DNA from: Methanomicrobium antiquum
GTDB lineage: Archaea; Halobacteriota; Methanomicrobia; Methanomicrobiales; Methanomicrobiaceae
Assembly (NCBI RefSeq): GCF_029633915.1
Contig: NZ_CP091092.1
Span: forward strand, 2,108,001-2,172,000
Reading direction: 5' to 3'
Length of the DNA stretch: 64,000 nucleotides
Numbering within the stretch: position 1 is the stretch's first letter; the number at the start of each line of letters is the position of its first letter. The notes beneath the pieces are model-generated. The model saw only the letters and a program-made list of their open reading frames with translations. It was not told where the DNA came from and made no database searches. This document shows, one piece after another, positions 1 to 16,778 of the stretch. The position numbers and the translations under genes are program-made.

Positions 1-498
1 AACAATCTGTCAGTCGGATACGGTACAGGCGGGACAGAGAGGTGGAGCTTTGACAAATCCGCCCTTGTAGCCGCATCCCCGTCAAGATGGCTGTCACAGC
101 TAATCGATAACAAAGGAAGCGATCTTAGACGTTATCTTGTAAAACTGCTTGACTTAAAAGGTTTTGACAGTGCAAAGGTAAACTCACACAATTACACAAA
201 GCCGTGGGAGATATCACTGACATTTTTTGCAGCCGCAAGTTTCCTTGACAACATTTCACCTCTTACAACCGGCGGCGGATACTGGGAGAAATATGAAAAG
301 GGGCGTGATAATATCCTTCACCATGCACTCTACCTGCATGAGGGAAAATACATTGTCCGTAACAAAACACTGCTTTTAACTGAGGCGGCAGAAATTGCAG
401 ATCTTGAAACAGGCACCAAAGCACAGATAGAAGAGGCGAAAGACAGGGTTTTAGACCTCTACACTGTTAAGGATATCAAAGAGGCAGCCGGTGAATGA
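1..498 (+). CDS. C-terminal part of an unrecognised protein (5' end outside window)
   Basis: The frame is open from base 1 to a TGA at 496-498 and gives 165 residues of a longer protein whose start lies upstream. I do not recognise the family. The visible part is soluble and mixed charged/hydrophobic, with a Gly-Thr-rich stretch near its beginning (YGTGGTERW) and a helical, acidic C-terminus. It has no membrane segment. The stop overlaps the start of the next gene by four bases (ATGA), so the two are very probably co-translated and their products probably work together. Because the neighbour is GTPase-like, a GTPase-associated regulator is conceivable, but nothing in the visible residues proves it. 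The coding assignment is firm; the function is unknown. Confidence 0.75.
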   Translation, partial: NNLSVGYGTGGTERWSFDKSALVAASPSRWLSQLIDNKGSDLRRYLVKLLDLKGFDSAKVNSHNYTKPWEISLTFFAAASFLDNISPLTTGGGYWEKYEKGRDNILHHALYLHEGKYIVRNKTLLLTEAAEIADLETGTKAQIEEAKDRVLDLYTVKDIKEAAGE

Positions 499-2060
499 TA
501 ATAAACAATAAAAGAAGGAAGATCTATCTTCTTTTAGCGTTGCCGCTGAGCATATTTGTAGCATATGTTTTCACAACGATAGCGCCGGTATTCAAAATTC
601 ATCCCGCACCGGTTGAACTTACAGTAATTGTTGAATTTTTATGCGGCCTTTTTTTCATAATTGCCGCAGGAATGATATTCAACGAGGACTCAAGAATAAA
701 CGGGGTAATTTATGCAGGCATATTTGCCGCAATACCCTGTTTTTATGTTTATCTCTCTCCATGGGCAAATATAGGGCTTTTGCTGATTTCTTTTTCATCA
801 GGAGTACTTATAGGACTTGTATTTGTTGCACGGGCTGTTCTTAATAACCGCTATGATAATCTTGCAGTAATGGCGAAAATTCTTTTTACAGTATTTTTCG
901 CAATAATTGTAGGATTTTTAGCTTATGAGATGTGGATTTTTGCAATTGAGCCGGAGTCTGAGACTACATCGGCATATGCAGCACAAAACATATTTTTCTT
1001 CGGTGCAGGAATCGTTGTATCTGTAATTCTCTATATTCTTGCAGTCAAATTAACAATTGGTGTTCGTGCATCGGAAATTTTTATTTTCGGACCCAGATCA
1101 TCCGGAAAAACCTACTTTGTGATGGGGCTTTGGAATTACATATCGCAGAACTTTGATAAAGGCCACTCAAACGAAGGCGTTGTCTTAACAGGCGATCCAA
1201 ACGATGAGGGAGACGACCTTAGAATTTCAAGCCTTTATGCAAATATTCTGGACGGGAGGATTCTTTCAAGAACATACCGCTATCAGATGGTCATATACCA
1301 GCTTACAGGCAAAAAATACGGCCTCATTCCGGTTAAATGGACAGTTGTTGACTATGCAGGCGAATATTACGATGAACTAAACGAAATTAACTTCAAAAAG
1401 GCTGTCAGTCTTTTAAGTGAAAGACTGGAAATGGCGCAGGGAGAAGTCAGAAAAAATGCAGGAACAATCCCGTTTGTCAAATACATAAAGCTTCACCATC
1501 CTGAAAAACTTCTTGATCCTGAATTTACCAAGAGTGTAATTATTGCAACAATGTATGGCAACTTCCTAAAGGCGGGAAAGGTCATTTTCTTAATTGACGG
1601 CGAGAAGATAACCGATAACAGAAAAGGGCATTCCCAGCTCGCAAGGGAATTTGGAGGTTATATGAAGACGCTGATTGATCTTGAGGGGAAAAATTACTTT
1701 GGATTTTTCAGCTCAAACAAGAAATATGCACTTGTTGTGACAAAAGCAGATCTGATTTTATGGAAAAACAAGGAGATAAGAAACCTTATTCACTCAATGA
1801 ACGCGTCAAAACTTTCAGACATTCCTGAAAAATCAAAACAGGCTCTTGCAATAGAAAAGAATCTGTTTGAGATTTTAAGTTCAAATATGGTCTTTAAAAA
1901 TCTTGTTAATATGATGAACGACATCTCTATGTATTTCGTTTGTGTATCGGTTGACGCAACAGCCGAACCTTTTCCAACCGAAGAGGGAATGGAAGAGGAG
2001 ATTGCACCAACAGCCCTTGCACCATGGAGATTTACAGAGATTTTCAGGTTTGGCCTTTAG
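495..2060 (+). CDS. Membrane-anchored GTPase-like protein (double-GTPase-like)
   Basis: 521 residues. The N-terminal ~190 residues hold about six hydrophobic segments (roughly 10-30, 42-62, 70-87, 92-112, 128-148, 165-188). A cytosolic P-loop domain follows, with G1 GPRSSGKT at 199-206, a G3-like DYAGE at 286-290 and a G4 TKAD at 416-419. The DxxGE form of G3 recalls the DO-GTPases described from bacterial conflict systems; that family assignment is an inference. Nucleotide binding is well supported, since three separate G motifs occur in the right order. The ATG overlaps the stop of the upstream gene, and the next gene follows after 39 bases. Its partners here are a single-pass membrane protein and a PEGA protein, which suggests an envelope-located signalling complex rather than a translation GTPase. 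Confidence 0.75.
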   Translation: MIINNKRRKIYLLLALPLSIFVAYVFTTIAPVFKIHPAPVELTVIVEFLCGLFFIIAAGMIFNEDSRINGVIYAGIFAAIPCFYVYLSPWANIGLLLISFSSGVLIGLVFVARAVLNNRYDNLAVMAKILFTVFFAIIVGFLAYEMWIFAIEPESETTSAYAAQNIFFFGAGIVVSVILYILAVKLTIGVRASEIFIFGPRSSGKTYFVMGLWNYISQNFDKGHSNEGVVLTGDPNDEGDDLRISSLYANILDGRILSRTYRYQMVIYQLTGKKYGLIPVKWTVVDYAGEYYDELNEINFKKAVSLLSERLEMAQGEVRKNAGTIPFVKYIKLHHPEKLLDPEFTKSVIIATMYGNFLKAGKVIFLIDGEKITDNRKGHSQLAREFGGYMKTLIDLEGKNYFGFFSSNKKYALVVTKADLILWKNKEIRNLIHSMNASKLSDIPEKSKQALAIEKNLFEILSSNMVFKNLVNMMNDISMYFVCVSVDATAEPFPTEEGMEEEIAPTALAPWRFTEIFRFGL

Positions 2061-2099
2061 CCAAAACTGTAATTTTCTTTTTGCAGGGGGAATAAAAAT

Positions 2100-3524
2100 A
2101 TGGAAGATTCATACGGAATTTTTACAACAGACGGCGAAACAATCTCAGGTTCACTTCATGACGACTATGCGGTAAATCTTGCAGAAAGGCTTGATGAGAG
2201 TACGGCATCTTTGTATATAAACACAAAAAACGGAGTTTTGCTTCTTGGAACGGCTGTTAATGTACAAAAGACAGGGAGGCGGCCTGACACATTCATATAC
2301 CTTGAAAAGACTGACATTGAAAAAGAGCTTCCGCCAAGAATAGATCTCTTATACATCCATGAATTTTACAAAAGGGTGAAAAACAGACTCTCAAAGATTG
2401 AGTATGAGATAAGAAATCTTGCATCAGATGACAGTTTCTTTGATGAGAGAAATAAAAGGATAACAAGCAGTCTTTCAGGCTCTAATGTTGCAGATTATGC
2501 TATTGGAAGACTTTTATTGTCAAAGGAGACTGTCTGTGTATCAGATGATCTGTCAAAATCAGTCGATTTTGTAGTAGCAGTTACAGAAAAACTTTCTTCA
2601 TACATATCAGCCGGATTTACAATCGTTGTTTCAAAAAGAACATTCAGAGGCGCTGATCTTTTGGTTACTGAGAAATTTTCAGGTGATGTGCAGATTTATC
2701 TTGACACCGAGAAAATAAACGACAAAAAACGGGCAGTCATCTATAAAAATATCGGAGTCTTTGCTCAGAATCCAAAGATAAGACAAAAAATTTCAGGTGC
2801 ATATACAAAAAACAGTCTGACAGAAGAACTTGTCACTCAGATAAAATTAAAAGAAGGCACAAACAGTAAAAAATCAGGAGAACTTGAGGAATTTTTAAGA
2901 GAGGAGAATATTGAATTTTCAAGAGAAAACACTGATTCCTTCTCACCTGAAAACTATGAAAGTCGTCCTGTATCAAAAAAATCCGCTGTTAACGAGGCCG
3001 GATATTCTGACTGGAAGATTAACGATTACGACAGGGAAAACCTTATGCTTGAATATGAAAAGCATATGGAGAAAAAGCATAAGGGAAGAGTCAAAATTAT
3101 TGCTCTTTTAGCAGTTATTCTTTTGTTAGCGGCAGGAGTGGTGTTTTTCTCAGGTTATACGGGATTTTTCGGCTCTAATGACAAAGAGACAGATATCCCG
3201 CACATCACCCCTTCTGCAACAATTGTGCCTGAACCTTCTCAGGGAGCAGTTGTAGAAAGGCTTAATTCAACTCCGGGAAACATGCCTGAAGAATTTTTAG
3301 GGTTTGGAAGTGCCTATATGATAACTGTTTCAGAACCATCAGATGCTTCATTTGATGTAACTTCACAGTTTCTTCCTGACAAAGAATATTTCCTGATGAT
3401 ATACAATCAGTCCGGATATTCATGGGAACCTGCTGATACATCTCCTCTTGTGTCAAACGAATCTGCGATAGCCTATATTGAAAAATCGGGCATATACAGG
3501 CTTTTTATAAAAAGAGAAAACTGA
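2100..3524 (+). CDS. Unknown single-pass membrane protein, partner of the GTPase
   Basis: 474 residues, no family recognised. The first ~325 residues look like a soluble cytoplasmic region ending in a charged linker. One membrane helix follows at about 331-352, then a Pro/Thr linker and a ~100-residue outside domain. There is no signal peptide. The start is ATG at 2100, preceded by GCAGGGGGAATAAAAAT, which holds a G-rich ribosome-binding site. The gene sits 39 bases behind the GTPase-like gene and in the same direction, so it is likely part of the same operon. With its inside and outside parts it could carry a signal between the GTPase in the cell and the exported PEGA-domain protein; that is only inferred from context. 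Confidence 0.65.
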   Translation: MEDSYGIFTTDGETISGSLHDDYAVNLAERLDESTASLYINTKNGVLLLGTAVNVQKTGRRPDTFIYLEKTDIEKELPPRIDLLYIHEFYKRVKNRLSKIEYEIRNLASDDSFFDERNKRITSSLSGSNVADYAIGRLLLSKETVCVSDDLSKSVDFVVAVTEKLSSYISAGFTIVVSKRTFRGADLLVTEKFSGDVQIYLDTEKINDKKRAVIYKNIGVFAQNPKIRQKISGAYTKNSLTEELVTQIKLKEGTNSKKSGELEEFLREENIEFSRENTDSFSPENYESRPVSKKSAVNEAGYSDWKINDYDRENLMLEYEKHMEKKHKGRVKIIALLAVILLLAAGVVFFSGYTGFFGSNDKETDIPHITPSATIVPEPSQGAVVERLNSTPGNMPEEFLGFGSAYMITVSEPSDASFDVTSQFLPDKEYFLMIYNQSGYSWEPADTSPLVSNESAIAYIEKSGIYRLFIKREN

Positions 3525-3544
3525 TTAAAGATAAAAAAAATTAT

Positions 3545-3606
3545 ATGAAAGTTACTTCGTAACTTACATGAAACAGTTAGCAGGAAAAAAATACCATGAA
3601 CGTTTT
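3545..3606 (-). repeat. Intergenic dyad element, copy 1
   Basis: Copy of a dispersed intergenic element, reversed relative to copies 2 and 3. The core is the 17-bp dyad AAGTTACTTCGTAACTT at 3549-3565 (7-bp arms, 3-base centre). It is flanked by CATGAAACAGTTA and, 25-30 bases on, by CATGAACGTTTT. It lies between two genes of the same operon-like run. Confidence 0.75.
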
Positions 3607-3710
3607 CAGTGAATAAAAATTCAGAAAAGAGAAAAAACAGAGCCTGAATAATTATCTTTCGGAATTTTTAAGGCAACATCTCAATTTTTGCTGAATCAGG
3701 GACTAAACAG

Positions 3711-5645
3711 ATGTCAAAGAACAATATCAGAAGGGCACAATATATTATTTTACTCATTTTTTTTGTATCAGTAGCTCTTTTTCCGCTGTGTGCATCTGCT
3801 GATGTTGTTAAAGGAACGATTTCTGTAAGGTCAGCACCCCAGGGTGCAGATATTTATTTAAATGACGAAAATATCGGGGAAAAAACAAATTATGTTATTT
3901 TAGATGTTTTCCCGGGGATTCATTTCATAAGGCTTGAGATGCCCGGATATAAGACATGGGAAGAGATTATTGAGGTAAAAGAGGGGGAAATTACCTTTGT
4001 CAGCCATGATATGGAAATTTCTGCCGGCGATGCATTTACCATTCAGACAAAGCCTGAAGGTGCACGGATTTACGTTGACGGAGAGTTTGAGGGATTTTCA
4101 AATACAGTCTTAAATCAGCTTCCGACAGGCCAGCACACTTTTTTGCTTACTCTTGATAACTACTCTGATTACCAAAAAACAGTCATGATAAATGAGGGTA
4201 TGTCACAGTCGCTTATGCATACCTTTGAGCCTCTTCCTGTAACAGGAGAGGTCATCTTTGAATCAAACCCTTCTAACGCCGCCATTTATTTGAATGGAGA
4301 ATATATAGGCGATACCAGGTACACTCTTAAGGATGTTTCTCCCGGCACTTATGATGTTGTCATAAAAAGGGCAGGATATGATGACTGGAAAGGAATTTTG
4401 GATGTTGCCGCCGGAAAAATATCAGAGGTGAAAGCTTCTCTTTCGCTTTCAAAAGCAGAGGTTGTTGTAAAAACAGAACCTCCGGATGCAGATGTCTTCC
4501 TTGACGGAGAATTAATAGGAAAAAGCCCCGTTTCAACACTAACTGATCAGGGAAACCATACAATAAGAATTGAAAAATTCGGATACAGGCCTGTTGAAGA
4601 GATTATAGAGGTTGGCCCTTTAGGAACGATTGTTTCATACACTCTTTATTCTATGGCAAAAGAGGCAGTAGATGAGGCAGAAAGTGCGATAAATGCCAAT
4701 CTGCAGTACAACCCTGAAAAAGGAAAGGAACTTTTAATTTCAGCAAAGGAGGCACTTGAAAGAGACGACACTCTAACTACTATCACTTTGTCAGAGCTTT
4801 CAATAAAAGCAAGCTTTGATGTTGATTCAGACGGGGTCTTGAATTCTCAGGATATTGCTCCAAATCTCGACAATACTCTGATTTATATCTCGCCATTCGC
4901 ATTTTTGATTGTTTTGGTGTTTTTGTTTGCAGCTGATTATTCTGTACAACAGATTCGCCCGGAACTTTTAATTGACATTCCAAAAAAAATTTTTGAGGAT
5001 GATATGCTTGCAAGAGGCCATGTTACTGCCCGGTTAGAGAGAGGGCCTTACAGGGCGTTTGTATGTACAATTTATATTGACGACTCATCAGTTGACCATT
5101 TCACAAATCCCGGAAGATATGACATAATGCTTGCCGGAAGAGGTGTTGGAGAGCATATTTTATCAGCACATCTTCAGATTGCAAAGAAAAGATACGGAAG
5201 TTTAGAGATAAAGGCTGAAGAGAAGTTTATTGTCGAATCTTTGAATCAAAAAAAGGATGATGATTTTTATTCTGATACAAAAATCCGGGATTTTGATGAG
5301 TCATCAAAAAAAGATTTAACAGGAGATAATAAAGATAAAGAATCAGAAATCATTGAAAATGAAGATATAACGTCTGATATGGCTGATAATAATAAATCAT
5401 CAGAGAATATTGAAGATAAGACATCTGAAAATAATGATAAAGTACTGGAAAATAAAGAAAATACGGATAAAGAATCTCCTGATACTGAAAATAGTCATAA
5501 AGAACCTCTCAACAATGAAGATAAAGAGACTGGTGATAAACCTGTTGAATTCTTAGACCCTGATGATTATCTATCTGAAAAAGTTTCAGAAATTATTGAG
5601 ACAGAAGATTATAGTAATGAACTTGAGAATTACTATGAAAAATGA
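3711..5645 (+). CDS. Exported PEGA-repeat membrane protein
   Basis: 644 residues. A signal peptide (about 1-31, ending CASA) is followed by four PEGA-type beta domains at roughly 32-95, 105-165, 178-240 and 250-305. Each has the pattern of a P-x-A/G turn, then xIYLNG or VFLDG, then a PGxHxIxL or similar strand. Next come a helical stretch, a calcium-loop-like DVDSDGVLNSQD motif, one membrane helix near 390-412, an Ig-like domain to about 505, and a very acidic, Asn/Lys/Glu-rich low-complexity tail. PEGA domains are surface and cell-wall-associated modules in archaea and bacteria. Together with the GTPase-like and single-pass proteins upstream, it suggests an envelope complex. A dyad repeat element lies on each side of the gene. 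Confidence 0.85.
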   Translation: MSKNNIRRAQYIILLIFFVSVALFPLCASADVVKGTISVRSAPQGADIYLNDENIGEKTNYVILDVFPGIHFIRLEMPGYKTWEEIIEVKEGEITFVSHDMEISAGDAFTIQTKPEGARIYVDGEFEGFSNTVLNQLPTGQHTFLLTLDNYSDYQKTVMINEGMSQSLMHTFEPLPVTGEVIFESNPSNAAIYLNGEYIGDTRYTLKDVSPGTYDVVIKRAGYDDWKGILDVAAGKISEVKASLSLSKAEVVVKTEPPDADVFLDGELIGKSPVSTLTDQGNHTIRIEKFGYRPVEEIIEVGPLGTIVSYTLYSMAKEAVDEAESAINANLQYNPEKGKELLISAKEALERDDTLTTITLSELSIKASFDVDSDGVLNSQDIAPNLDNTLIYISPFAFLIVLVFLFAADYSVQQIRPELLIDIPKKIFEDDMLARGHVTARLERGPYRAFVCTIYIDDSSVDHFTNPGRYDIMLAGRGVGEHILSAHLQIAKKRYGSLEIKAEEKFIVESLNQKKDDDFYSDTKIRDFDESSKKDLTGDNKDKESEIIENEDITSDMADNNKSSENIEDKTSENNDKVLENKENTDKESPDTENSHKEPLNNEDKETGDKPVEFLDPDDYLSEKVSEIIETEDYSNELENYYEK

Positions 5646-5708: not shown

Positions 5709-5780
5709 AAAAACGTCCATGAAATAATATCTCATGGTAACTGTTTCATGTAAGTTACGAAGTAGCTTTCATGTGAAATT
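5709..5780 (+). repeat. Intergenic dyad element, copy 2
   Basis: Same element as at 3545-3606 in the opposite orientation. It contains AAAACGTCCATGAAA, then TAACTGTTTCATG, then the 17-bp dyad AAGTTACGAAGTAGCTT at 5752-5768 (one arm mismatch), then TTCATG. Confidence 0.75.
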
Positions 5781-5841: not shown

Positions 5842-6642
5842 ATGAGCGGTAAAGATTTACAAATGAAAGATGATTCAAACAGCGGGAATACAGGAGATGA
5901 CAATCTCTTTAAAAATCGTTATGGTGAGGAGATAGGAAGCGGACAGTCTGCTGTTGTTTATGAAAAAGACGGAATTGCCGCAAAAGTCTACCGCGAAGGA
6001 CAGCCCAGAAAGCAGGTATACCAGGAGGCATTTACAATGGCGGTTGTAAAAGACAGCAATATCCCCTCCCCGGAAATATATGGTGTTGAGACATTCTGCA
6101 ACAGGACTGCACTTCTAATGGAAAAGGTTGAGGGGAGATCACTTTTTGATTTTTTAACAGAAAATCCGGACAAAAAAGAGGATTACATGGATAAAGTCGT
6201 TGAGCTTCAGGTCTTAATGCACAGAATTACCACAACCGAGTTCAGACCGCAAAAGCAGGTTCTTGCAGGAACAATAATTGCAAGTCCGGGACTAAATCCT
6301 GATGAAAAAAATGCTCTTCTTGAAAATTTACAGACACTTCCGGATGGATATTCGATATGCCACGGCGATTTCCACCTGGGAAATGTCCTATTTGACGGAG
6401 AAAATTACATAATTATTGACTGGGCTGAGGTGTCCTGCGGTGCACCTGCATCTGATGCGTGCCGAAGTTACCTTGATTACTTAATTATGGGAGAGGGACT
6501 TGAAGAAATTTATATTGAAAAATATTCCAGACTCTCAGATATTCCTAAAGAGGAAATTCTAAACTGGCTTTCAGTTACAGCCGGGTCAATCTACGGATAT
6601 CTTGGTGATGAAGCACAAAAAAAGATCAGGCATTTATTTTAG
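5842..6642 (+). CDS. APH-type small-molecule or protein kinase
   Basis: 266 residues of the aminoglycoside phosphotransferase/choline-kinase-like fold. After a disordered N-terminus the nucleotide loop (EIGSGQSAVVYEKDG) and the VAIK-like lysine region (AAKVYREG) can be seen. The catalytic loop HGDFHLGNVLF starts at residue 174 (Asp176, Asn181), and the metal-binding Asp is in IIIDWAEV at 193. All catalytic residues are present, so it is probably active. The substrate cannot be told; aminoglycoside resistance should not be assumed. The gene stands alone between two dyad repeat elements and runs in the same direction as the PEGA gene, so it may be a loosely linked member of that group. Confidence 0.8.
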   Translation: MSGKDLQMKDDSNSGNTGDDNLFKNRYGEEIGSGQSAVVYEKDGIAAKVYREGQPRKQVYQEAFTMAVVKDSNIPSPEIYGVETFCNRTALLMEKVEGRSLFDFLTENPDKKEDYMDKVVELQVLMHRITTTEFRPQKQVLAGTIIASPGLNPDEKNALLENLQTLPDGYSICHGDFHLGNVLFDGENYIIIDWAEVSCGAPASDACRSYLDYLIMGEGLEEIYIEKYSRLSDIPKEEILNWLSVTAGSIYGYLGDEAQKKIRHLF

Positions 6643-6723: not shown

Positions 6724-6793
6724 AAACGTCCATGATAATTTTTTTCATGATAACTGTTTCATGTAAGTTACGAAGTAACTTTCATGTAAAACG
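6724..6793 (+). repeat. Intergenic dyad element, copy 3
   Basis: Best-preserved copy: AAACGTCCATGATAA, then TTTTTCATGATAACTGTTTC, then the perfect dyad AAGTTACGAAGTAACTT at 6765-6781, then TTCATGTAAAACG. It lies in the 292-base gap between the kinase gene and the next membrane protein gene. Confidence 0.8.
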
Positions 6794-16721: not shown

Positions 16722-16778
16722 TTTACCATGAAAATCAAATTATGATTTTCATGCAAGTTACTAAGTAACTTAGATAGC
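16722..16778 (+). repeat. Intergenic dyad element, copy 5
   Basis: Contains CCATGAAAATCAAATTATGA, TTTTCATGC and the perfect dyad AAGTTACTAAGTAACTT at 16755-16771, combining both sequence versions seen in the other copies. Confidence 0.7.

Follow-up and report, generated by a model that had tools for sequence, protein, structure and literature searches.

The Locus and Its Operon

The left edge of the window, a 64,000-nt stretch of Methanomicrobium antiquum contig NZ_CP091092.1, cuts into a gene run that raises a question of identity: to which system does a membrane GTPase belong when it is encoded beside a single-pass protein and a PEGA-domain surface protein? A reading made from the sequence alone had described four open reading frames here, at 1–498 (open at the 5′ end), 495–2060, 2100–3524 and 3711–5645, with the first two overlapping by ATGA, and found that it could not assign them to a described system. 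The frames were recovered as described. The assignment follows from the left flank, a check which the same reading had proposed: the cut gene encodes a tubulin and is preceded by a gene for a secreted protein, SEC258, and once this flank is restored the operon is recognizable as the FtsZl1 system of archaea (Makarova and Koonin 2010, PMC2875224). The window start thus truncates the operon, leaving most of its main gene, the tubulin gene, to the left of position 1. The five genes are as follows.

Genome 2104437–2105213, upstream of the tubulin gene: SEC258, secreted protein with a C-terminal helix
1..498, + strand: last 165 codons of TUB1090, a 1090-aa tubulin/FtsZ-superfamily protein of FtsZl1 type, open at the 5′ end (Pfam and structure model)
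495..2060, + strand: GTPase521, membrane GTPase of 521 aa, with 5–6 predicted helices followed by a cytosolic P-loop GTPase domain
2100..3524, + strand: TM474, predicted from an AlphaFold2 model to comprise a cytosolic longin-like and alpha/beta domain, one membrane helix and an extracellular beta-sandwich
3711..5645, + strand: PEGA644, PEGA protein of 644 aa (Pfam PEGA 1e-56, four stretches)

The order SEC258–TUB1090–GTPase521–TM474–PEGA644 is seen in 21 of the 44 annotated loci, all with short or overlapping junctions, and the five genes form a conserved set of methane-making archaea. The arrangement of the first four extends to Methanosarcinaceae and others. In a sample of 150 genomes of the order, the GTPase is found in 33 and the tubulin in 32, the two genes adjoining in every tubulin-bearing genome (32/32); all 20 GTPase copies of the phylum sample are likewise adjacent to a tubulin gene. 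Two loci (L089 and L117) keep the GTPase–TM474 pair together with no tubulin seen. Methanofollis-type loci carry the tubulin and the GTPase, while TM474 and the PEGA protein were undetected there, suggesting that these two are dispensable in some versions of the system. The sequence-only reading had staked its case on linkage of the PEGA gene to the GTPase in other genomes, and the survey bears it out: a membrane protein carrying a GTPase domain on its intracellular side stands in fixed genetic linkage with single-pass and PEGA surface proteins. An APH-like kinase gene at 5842–6642 is absent from the conserved set and was excluded from the operon.

The Tubulin-Family Protein

The complete tubulin gene spans genome positions 2105226–2108498, starting 2775 bp left of the window. 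Pfam identifies its product as a tubulin (Tubulin_2, 5.1e-12; Tubulin, 1.6e-8), as it does in 26 of 26 family members, and the translation contains GGGTGSG. FtsZl1 was described as a tubulin of ~1050–1100 aa with GGGTG(S/T)G and a long coiled-coil region, encoded in an operon with a P-loop GTPase and extra membrane proteins (PMC2875224); it has been reported among the most diverged branches of the superfamily. The Pfam models match the first half of TUB1090 only, as in 2010, when sequence methods detected no similarity of the C-terminal domain to known tubulins (PMC2875224).

A structure model of an orthologue 86% identical to TUB1090 (pLDDT 79) aligns with CetZ (Foldseek E 8.3e-6; Z 21.8), covering 313 of 342 CetZ residues over the range 14–1024, and with FtsZ at Z about 20. 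The region from ~404 to ~911 is almost wholly helical in the model. The predicted fold is therefore that of a complete tubulin, in which a helical arm of ~520 residues would separate the nucleotide-binding half from a second half located at the C-terminal end; the part encoded in the window corresponds to this conserved C-terminal half and the tail behind it. Conservation is 0.70 in the N-terminal half, 0.68 in the C-terminal half and 0.49 in the insertion. A candidate T7-loop TxxD, tentatively placed, occupies model residues 384–387 (T384 invariant, D387 in 82%). The modeled complete fold, together with the conservation of both halves, suggests that the protein assembles. Whether FtsZl1 can form filaments could not be settled in 2010, since half of the fold had not been found, and our literature search returned no experimental study of any member; with the second half now placed by the model at the C-terminal end, the question is open to direct testing.

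Elsewhere, the genome carries tubulin-family genes of FtsZ size (two, 383 and 409 aa) and of CetZ size (one, 390 aa). These genes and the superfamily membership itself would be compatible with an accessory role in cell division or cell shape, FtsZl1 acting with FtsZ or CetZ. We nevertheless regard such a role as highly improbable: the GTPase and the tubulin are distributed too unevenly (33 and 32 of 150 genomes) to serve a core role in division, and the operon holds no division gene. Because separate FtsZ-type genes are present, the operon likely serves local membrane shaping or surface organization and not cell division.

The Membrane GTPase

The GTPase gene and the tubulin gene share 4 bp. 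Six helices had been claimed for its product from the sequence; hydropathy across homologues gives 5–6. Its nucleotide-binding motifs, compared over 27 homologues with identities down to 25%, are the following.

1089..1112, + strand: G1/Walker A GPRSSGKT, residues 199–206; G199, G204 and K205 invariant
1350..1364, + strand: G3 DYAGE, residues 286–290; D286, Y287 and G289 invariant, Glu variable
1740..1751, + strand: G4 TKAD, residues 416–419; T416, K417 and D419 invariant

Such invariance in 27 homologues shows that the motifs are not a matter of chance. All three motifs proposed in the sequence-only reading are thus conserved; the glutamate of its DxxGE signature is not, being replaced by R, K or S in Methanofollis-type GTPases.

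The same reading had pointed to DO-GTPases and, through them, to a conflict system. The first of these leads holds in part, at the level of the family: every one of the 27 homologues gives a Pfam DO-GTPase2 hit at E<1, and that from locus L089 reaches 34.4 bits (cut-off 27), equal to the GTPase encoded beside a true GAP1 in locus L170. GTPase521 itself scores 13.2 bits, below the cut-off, and its comparison with two archaeal DO-GTPases by hhalign reached no better than E 0.075. A search of PDB sequences with the GTPase profile produced nothing significant, the best weak match being SR-beta (E 0.03).

The second lead corresponds to an anti-invader system of DO-GTPase type, in which the GTPase would sense an invader via partner proteins or those of the surface, with assembly of the tubulin as the effector. 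There is precedent for it: Kaur et al. 2020 (PMC7159879) described a tubulin theme in DO-GTPase/GAP1-N2 systems, including neighborhoods that combine tubulin with DO-GTPases, some of them PEGA-fused, and proposed tubulin assembly as the effector. The L089 score also speaks for it. However, PF20013 (GAP1-N2) has no match in the genome even at E<=1. The canonical GAP1 systems of archaea lie in loci of their own, L170 and L171, with no tubulin found there by the search profiles. Gene content is constant across the family, and the operons of the annotated loci hold no variable effector; the sole match of the operon genes to a defence library is weak and falls on the P-loop (mad8, E 0.0017). The conflict-system reading gained no positive evidence, and we consider it improbable.

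TM474, a Candidate Partner of the GTPase

Hydropathy agrees with the earlier description of the 474-aa protein as single-pass. Its AlphaFold2 model (pLDDT 78.5) resolves two features.

2100..2414, + strand: longin/roadblock-like domain, residues 1–105, strand-strand-helix-strand-strand-strand-helix (DSSP of the model)
3090..3155, + strand: single membrane helix, ~residues 331–352 (hydropathy peak at 333; model helix 309–351)

The three top structural matches of the model are all DENN proteins, DENND10 (Z 8.2), DENND1B (Z 7.7) and DENND1A (Z 7.6), and its topology agrees with that of a DENN module, an N-terminal longin followed by an alpha/beta DENN domain; even the best of these scores is borderline, as unmatched models commonly score Z 7–8. 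The N-terminal domain matches Asgard Roadblock 7yh1 at Z 6.2 (rmsd 2.3 Å over 84 residues) and MglB 6h5b gives Z 5.8, while the extracellular sandwich has weak GAIN/ZU5 beta-sandwich matches (Z 6–7). Pfam and PDB sequence searches, methods perhaps too weak for the purpose, returned no DENN, longin or roadblock family, and a TM474 profile had no significant match among PDB sequences. From the model and from its place beside the GTPase gene, kept in L089 and L117 too, TM474 is predicted to be a GEF/GAP-type regulator, the partner of the membrane GTPase.

TM474 was also considered as a diverged GAP1 and rejected: hhalign gave a probability of 0.1% for the whole protein and for its N-terminal part, using a two-sequence profile and two GAP1s. 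A search for further GAP1 sequences on plasmids yielded none. By eye, both proteins show a G-R-x-x motif before a strand, a likeness not counted as evidence.

The Surface Proteins

PEGA644 consists of a signal peptide, four PEGA domains, a calcium-type loop, a second membrane helix (~residue 390), a conserved domain predicted to be cytosolic and a poorly conserved D/E/K-rich tail.

3813..4646, + strand: four PEGA domains, extracellular
4818..4853, + strand: calcium-type loop DVDSDGVLNSQD, residues 370–381, DxDxDGxxNxxD, immediately outside the membrane helix
4941..5240, + strand: predicted cytosolic domain, residues 411–510, after the helix at ~390

Both the four PEGA domains and the calcium-loop motif had been noted earlier and are confirmed; D370, D372, D374, G375, N378 and D381 of the loop are invariant in 15 of 15 homologues. 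Mean column identity is 0.51 in residues 411–510 and 0.12 in the tail, and the cytosolic orientation of the former is predicted from flanking charges. The second helix and the domain behind it had escaped the first reading, as had the tubulin identity of the cut gene and the upstream secreted gene. A SEC258 profile found nothing significant among PDB sequences.

Three of the five operon proteins face outside, which favors a surface transport or signaling complex, with the tubulin as a static cytosolic scaffold, the GTPase as a receptor-coupled relay and no membrane shaping. A reviewer of the 2010 paper, disputing membrane remodeling, proposed this same alternative (PMC2875224), and the GTPase–TM474 pairs lacking tubulin in L089 and L117 are in line with it. 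The modeled tubulin fold with its conserved halves suggests assembly instead, and the conserved gene set of the annotated loci includes no transporter gene. We hold this alternative to be rather unlikely.

Proposed Mechanism

On balance, we slightly favor a membrane-anchored tubulin scaffold, switched by the membrane GTPase and its partner and coupled to surface proteins. TUB1090 would probably assemble in a GTP-dependent manner at the inner face of the membrane, and the polytopic GTPase may act as the molecular switch recruiting or releasing it there. The longin-like and alpha/beta module of TM474, a predicted fold, could bind the GTPase and alter its nucleotide state. SEC258, PEGA644 and the extracellular part of TM474 may relay a signal or a force through the membrane to the S-layer or the exterior, and the calcium-type loop of PEGA644 may sense or require divalent cations.

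More tentatively, and with rather low confidence, we speculate that the operon represents a euryarchaeal GTPase–regulator–cytoskeleton module: a longin-DENN-like protein anchored in the membrane would regulate the membrane GTPase, and the GTPase in turn a full tubulin fold with a giant inserted arm. The Rab–DENN regulatory pair is thought to be eukaryotic in origin; if the speculation is correct, the module as a whole would be the counterpart of that pair in prokaryotes and perhaps related to it. Were the partner of the GTPase indeed longin/DENN-like, a tubulin of prokaryotes would be linked with the kind of switch on which eukaryotic membrane traffic depends. Deletion tests are feasible, given that Methanomicrobium and Methanogenium can be grown in culture and that Methanosarcina is amenable to genetics.

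Comparison with Known Systems

The 2010 paper predicted the FtsZl1 and GTPase core from gene order, with the GTPase membrane-associated in archaea, and its original alignment included Methanospirillum and Methanosarcina sequences (PMC2875224). The present operon shares with that system a tubulin of ~1000 aa with an N-terminal GGGTGSG domain, a helical central region and a membrane P-loop GTPase. A von Willebrand A protein, encoded in the majority of FtsZl1 operons but not in all (PMC2875224), is missing among the five operon proteins here. Relative to the 2010 account, the operon adds SEC258, TM474 and the four-PEGA protein, although some of the unnamed operon genes of that paper may correspond to TM474 or SEC258. 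The model also supplies the predicted complete C-terminal tubulin half, which was then unidentifiable; this half and the predicted longin/roadblock-like N-terminus of TM474, with its borderline DENN match, are what is new here.

With DO-GTPase systems, the operon shares a GTPase of DO-GTPase2 type at the family level, a probable partner in the next gene downstream, and tubulin and PEGA elements. It differs in the absence of GAP1-N2 from the genome, in a TM474 without detectable GAP1 similarity, in the 5–6 helices of GTPase521, which has no zinc ribbons, and in the lack of variable effectors. The Walker B glutamate of DO-GTPases is present in GTPase521 (DYAGE), whereas Methanofollis-type members have R, K or S.

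As in the MglA–MglB and Rab–DENN pairs, a GTPase is encoded beside its predicted longin/roadblock-like regulator, the TM474 model resembling DENN modules and roadblock domains. Unlike those regulators, TM474 is membrane-anchored and has an extracellular domain, the likeness is structural, weak and predicted only, and GTPase521 gives no Pfam match to the MglA or Rab families. The ArvABC vesiculation operon of Haloferax (Mills et al. 2024, PMC10927574) similarly combines an archaeal GTPase with proposed GEF-/GAP-like partners that act on the membrane, but its gene content is unrelated: ArvA is a small GTPase, ArvB is SepF-like and no tubulin is encoded in the operon (PMC10927574). Finally, TUB1090 is predicted by its model to share the fold of CetZ and FtsZ, from which it is set apart by the ~520-residue helical insertion and a very distant sequence.

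Operon structure

The operon begins upstream of the window. The sequence-only reading had described a GTPase-like/PEGA membrane operon at 1–5645; its four open reading frames were re-read on the sequence at the same positions, and the operon is real, but its true extent is larger. The window spans positions 2108001–2172000 of a complete genome of 2.44 Mb. Since the window start falls inside a gene, its left flank was added to the analysis. The truncated gene encodes a tubulin-superfamily protein of 1090 codons (Pfam Tubulin_2 5.1e-12, Tubulin 1.6e-8). The full order is SEC258 (secreted protein), TUB1090 (FtsZl1-type tubulin), GTPase521 (membrane GTPase), TM474 (single-pass protein) and PEGA644 (four-PEGA protein), with successive junctions of 12, −4, 39 and 186 bases. 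Gene linkage, motifs and, by hydropathy, membrane topology are read from the sequence.

PEGA644 comprises a signal peptide, four PEGA domains, a calcium loop (unchanged in 15 of 15 homologues), a membrane helix and a conserved domain predicted to be cytosolic; poor conservation is confined to its D/E/K-rich tail. Family and profile searches of the SEC258 sequence found no known domain.

An APH-superfamily kinase-like gene (5842–6642; APH 6.6e-20, TIGR02172 2.2e-13) adjoins the operon, outside the conserved set. A 24-base repeat with a perfect small hairpin (AAGTTAC-TTC-GTAACTT) lies on both sides of the PEGA gene; the genome holds about 131 copies at up to two mismatches, against 0 for the reversed control.

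Copies of the 24-base hairpin repeat
3551–3574 (+)
5743–5766 (−)
6756–6779 (−)
16746–16769 (−)

Conservation and gene linkage

A strong tubulin match was found in 32 of 150 Methanomicrobiales genomes, always with the GTPase adjoining (32/32); one further genome among the 150 carries the GTPase without the tubulin. Across 295 genomes of the phylum Halobacteriota, a long Tubulin_2 gene adjoins every GTPase copy (20/20). Gene order was compared in 44 loci annotated with profiles. The full five-gene order occurs in 21 of them (20 from whole genomes, plus locus L099), SEC-TUB-GTP-TM is the arrangement of Methanosarcinaceae and others, and SEC-TUB-GTP that of Methanofollis-type genomes. Two loci, one from a Methanoregula MAG, contain GTPase and TM474 genes without tubulin and SEC258 (L089:6192–9276 and L117:3944–7131), suggesting that this pair is a separate unit. 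From this distribution, the GTPase belongs to both core pairs, one with the tubulin and one with TM474, and the PEGA gene is an add-on within one branch.

The L099 contig is labelled Bacteroidota and that of L119 Cloacimonadota, and both hold the archaeal operon; L099 is probably truly archaeal, and both labels are probably binning errors in metagenome assemblies. In one genome a diverged second long-tubulin copy (L086:11070–14360; 29% identical) lies immediately behind the five-gene operon.

Tubulin

The tubulin structure was modelled on an 86% identical orthologue (L090:4750–8001) with 21 relatives (pLDDT 79, pTM 0.61). The model resembles CetZ, FtsZ and tubulin (Foldseek E 8.3e-6), and aligns with CetZ 3zid at Z 21.8 and 3.8 Å over 313 of 342 CetZ residues, spanning model residues 14–1024. 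A complete tubulin fold is thus predicted, laid out by secondary structure as follows.

Residues 14 to ~329, nucleotide half
To ~403, H7-H8 region
To ~911, nearly all-helical stretch
Residues 936–999, strand-helix-strand-strand, source of the C-terminal half

This layout is backed by the conservation profile: mean column identity is 0.70 for the first half and 0.68 for the C-terminal half, and 0.49 across the insertion. The 2010 description of FtsZl1 found neither T6-H7 nor any similarity at the C-terminus, and considered three ways to account for filament formation, extreme divergence among them (PMC2875224). The model favours extreme divergence, with the T7 residues placed only approximately.

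Elsewhere the genome carries two tubulin-family genes of FtsZ size, a CetZ-sized one and another divergent tubulin, which makes a role of the operon in division unlikely. The divergent gene (genome 1531789–1532280, L168; >660 aa) has an altered T4 loop, GLGGNVCD for GGGTGSG, and a long, disordered-looking tail; its neighbour resembles archaeal PEP carboxylase.

Membrane GTPase

GTPase521 consists of 5–6 helices, by hydropathy, followed by a P-loop GTPase domain, whose G1, G3 and G4 residues are unchanged in 27 homologues and in a second, wider set (n = 24). Pfam DO-GTPase2 is the sole family matching every member (27/27 at E<1), a model to which background matches of P-loops are common; against its cut-off of 27 bits, GTPase521 scores 13.2 and the L089 GTPase 34.4. 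GTPases encoded beside GAP1 score 34.4 (L170, a genuine GAP1) and 20.1 bits (L171), so by sequence score the nearer family members fit the model roughly as well as true archaeal DO-GTPases do.

L170:7127–11006 and L171:429–4310 are canonical archaeal GTPase-GAP1 pairs of the GAP1-N2 type. A Methanofollis-type genome (G033) carries a GTPase-GAP1 pair far from its own long tubulin.

TM474

The N-terminal 268 residues of TM474 are well predicted. In the model, residues 1–105 adopt a longin topology and resemble roadblock and longin domains (7yh1, Z 6.2, 2.3 Å over 84; MglB, Z 5.8). The best structural matches of the N-terminal ~276 residues are DENN proteins (DENND10, Z 8.2 over 225; DENND1B, 7.7; DENND1A, 7.6), at a level that chance matches reach; top Foldseek rows include DENND1A and a C9orf72:SMCR8:WDR41 chain. 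Given these Z values, a longin-like domain is likely and kinship with DENN possible; sequence profile searches of TM474 neither back nor exclude either. Longin and roadblock domains bind GTPases, and DENN modules are GEFs (PMC3521125). With the GTPase gene adjacent, TM474 is a plausible regulator of its neighbour.

Comparison with known systems

We hypothesize that the GTPase may recruit the tubulin to the membrane, that TM474 would exert control, and that PEGA644 and SEC258 could provide coupling to the surface. In Haloferax, the ArvABC operon illustrates how a GTPase of an archaeon, together with proteins from its operon, can bring about the formation of vesicles (PMC10927574), a likeness by analogy and not homology.

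In 2010 Makarova and Koonin described the same core, FtsZl1 with a GTPase that in archaea is membrane-associated, and proposed membrane remodelling on computational grounds (PMC2875224); Tubulin_2 proteins were left aside when the FtsZ/tubulin family was surveyed in 2023. In 2020 Kaur et al. described DO-GTPase systems with tubulin and GAP1, some of whose GTPases are fused to PEGA (PMC7159879). The present operon is kin to the latter but lacks GAP1-N2, which a profile search did not find in this genome, and it fits the FtsZl1 system. The operon thus belongs to a known but uncharacterised system, of which it is a variant that bears PEGA; two structural predictions, the tubulin fold and the TM474 longin-like domain, are new and merit testing.
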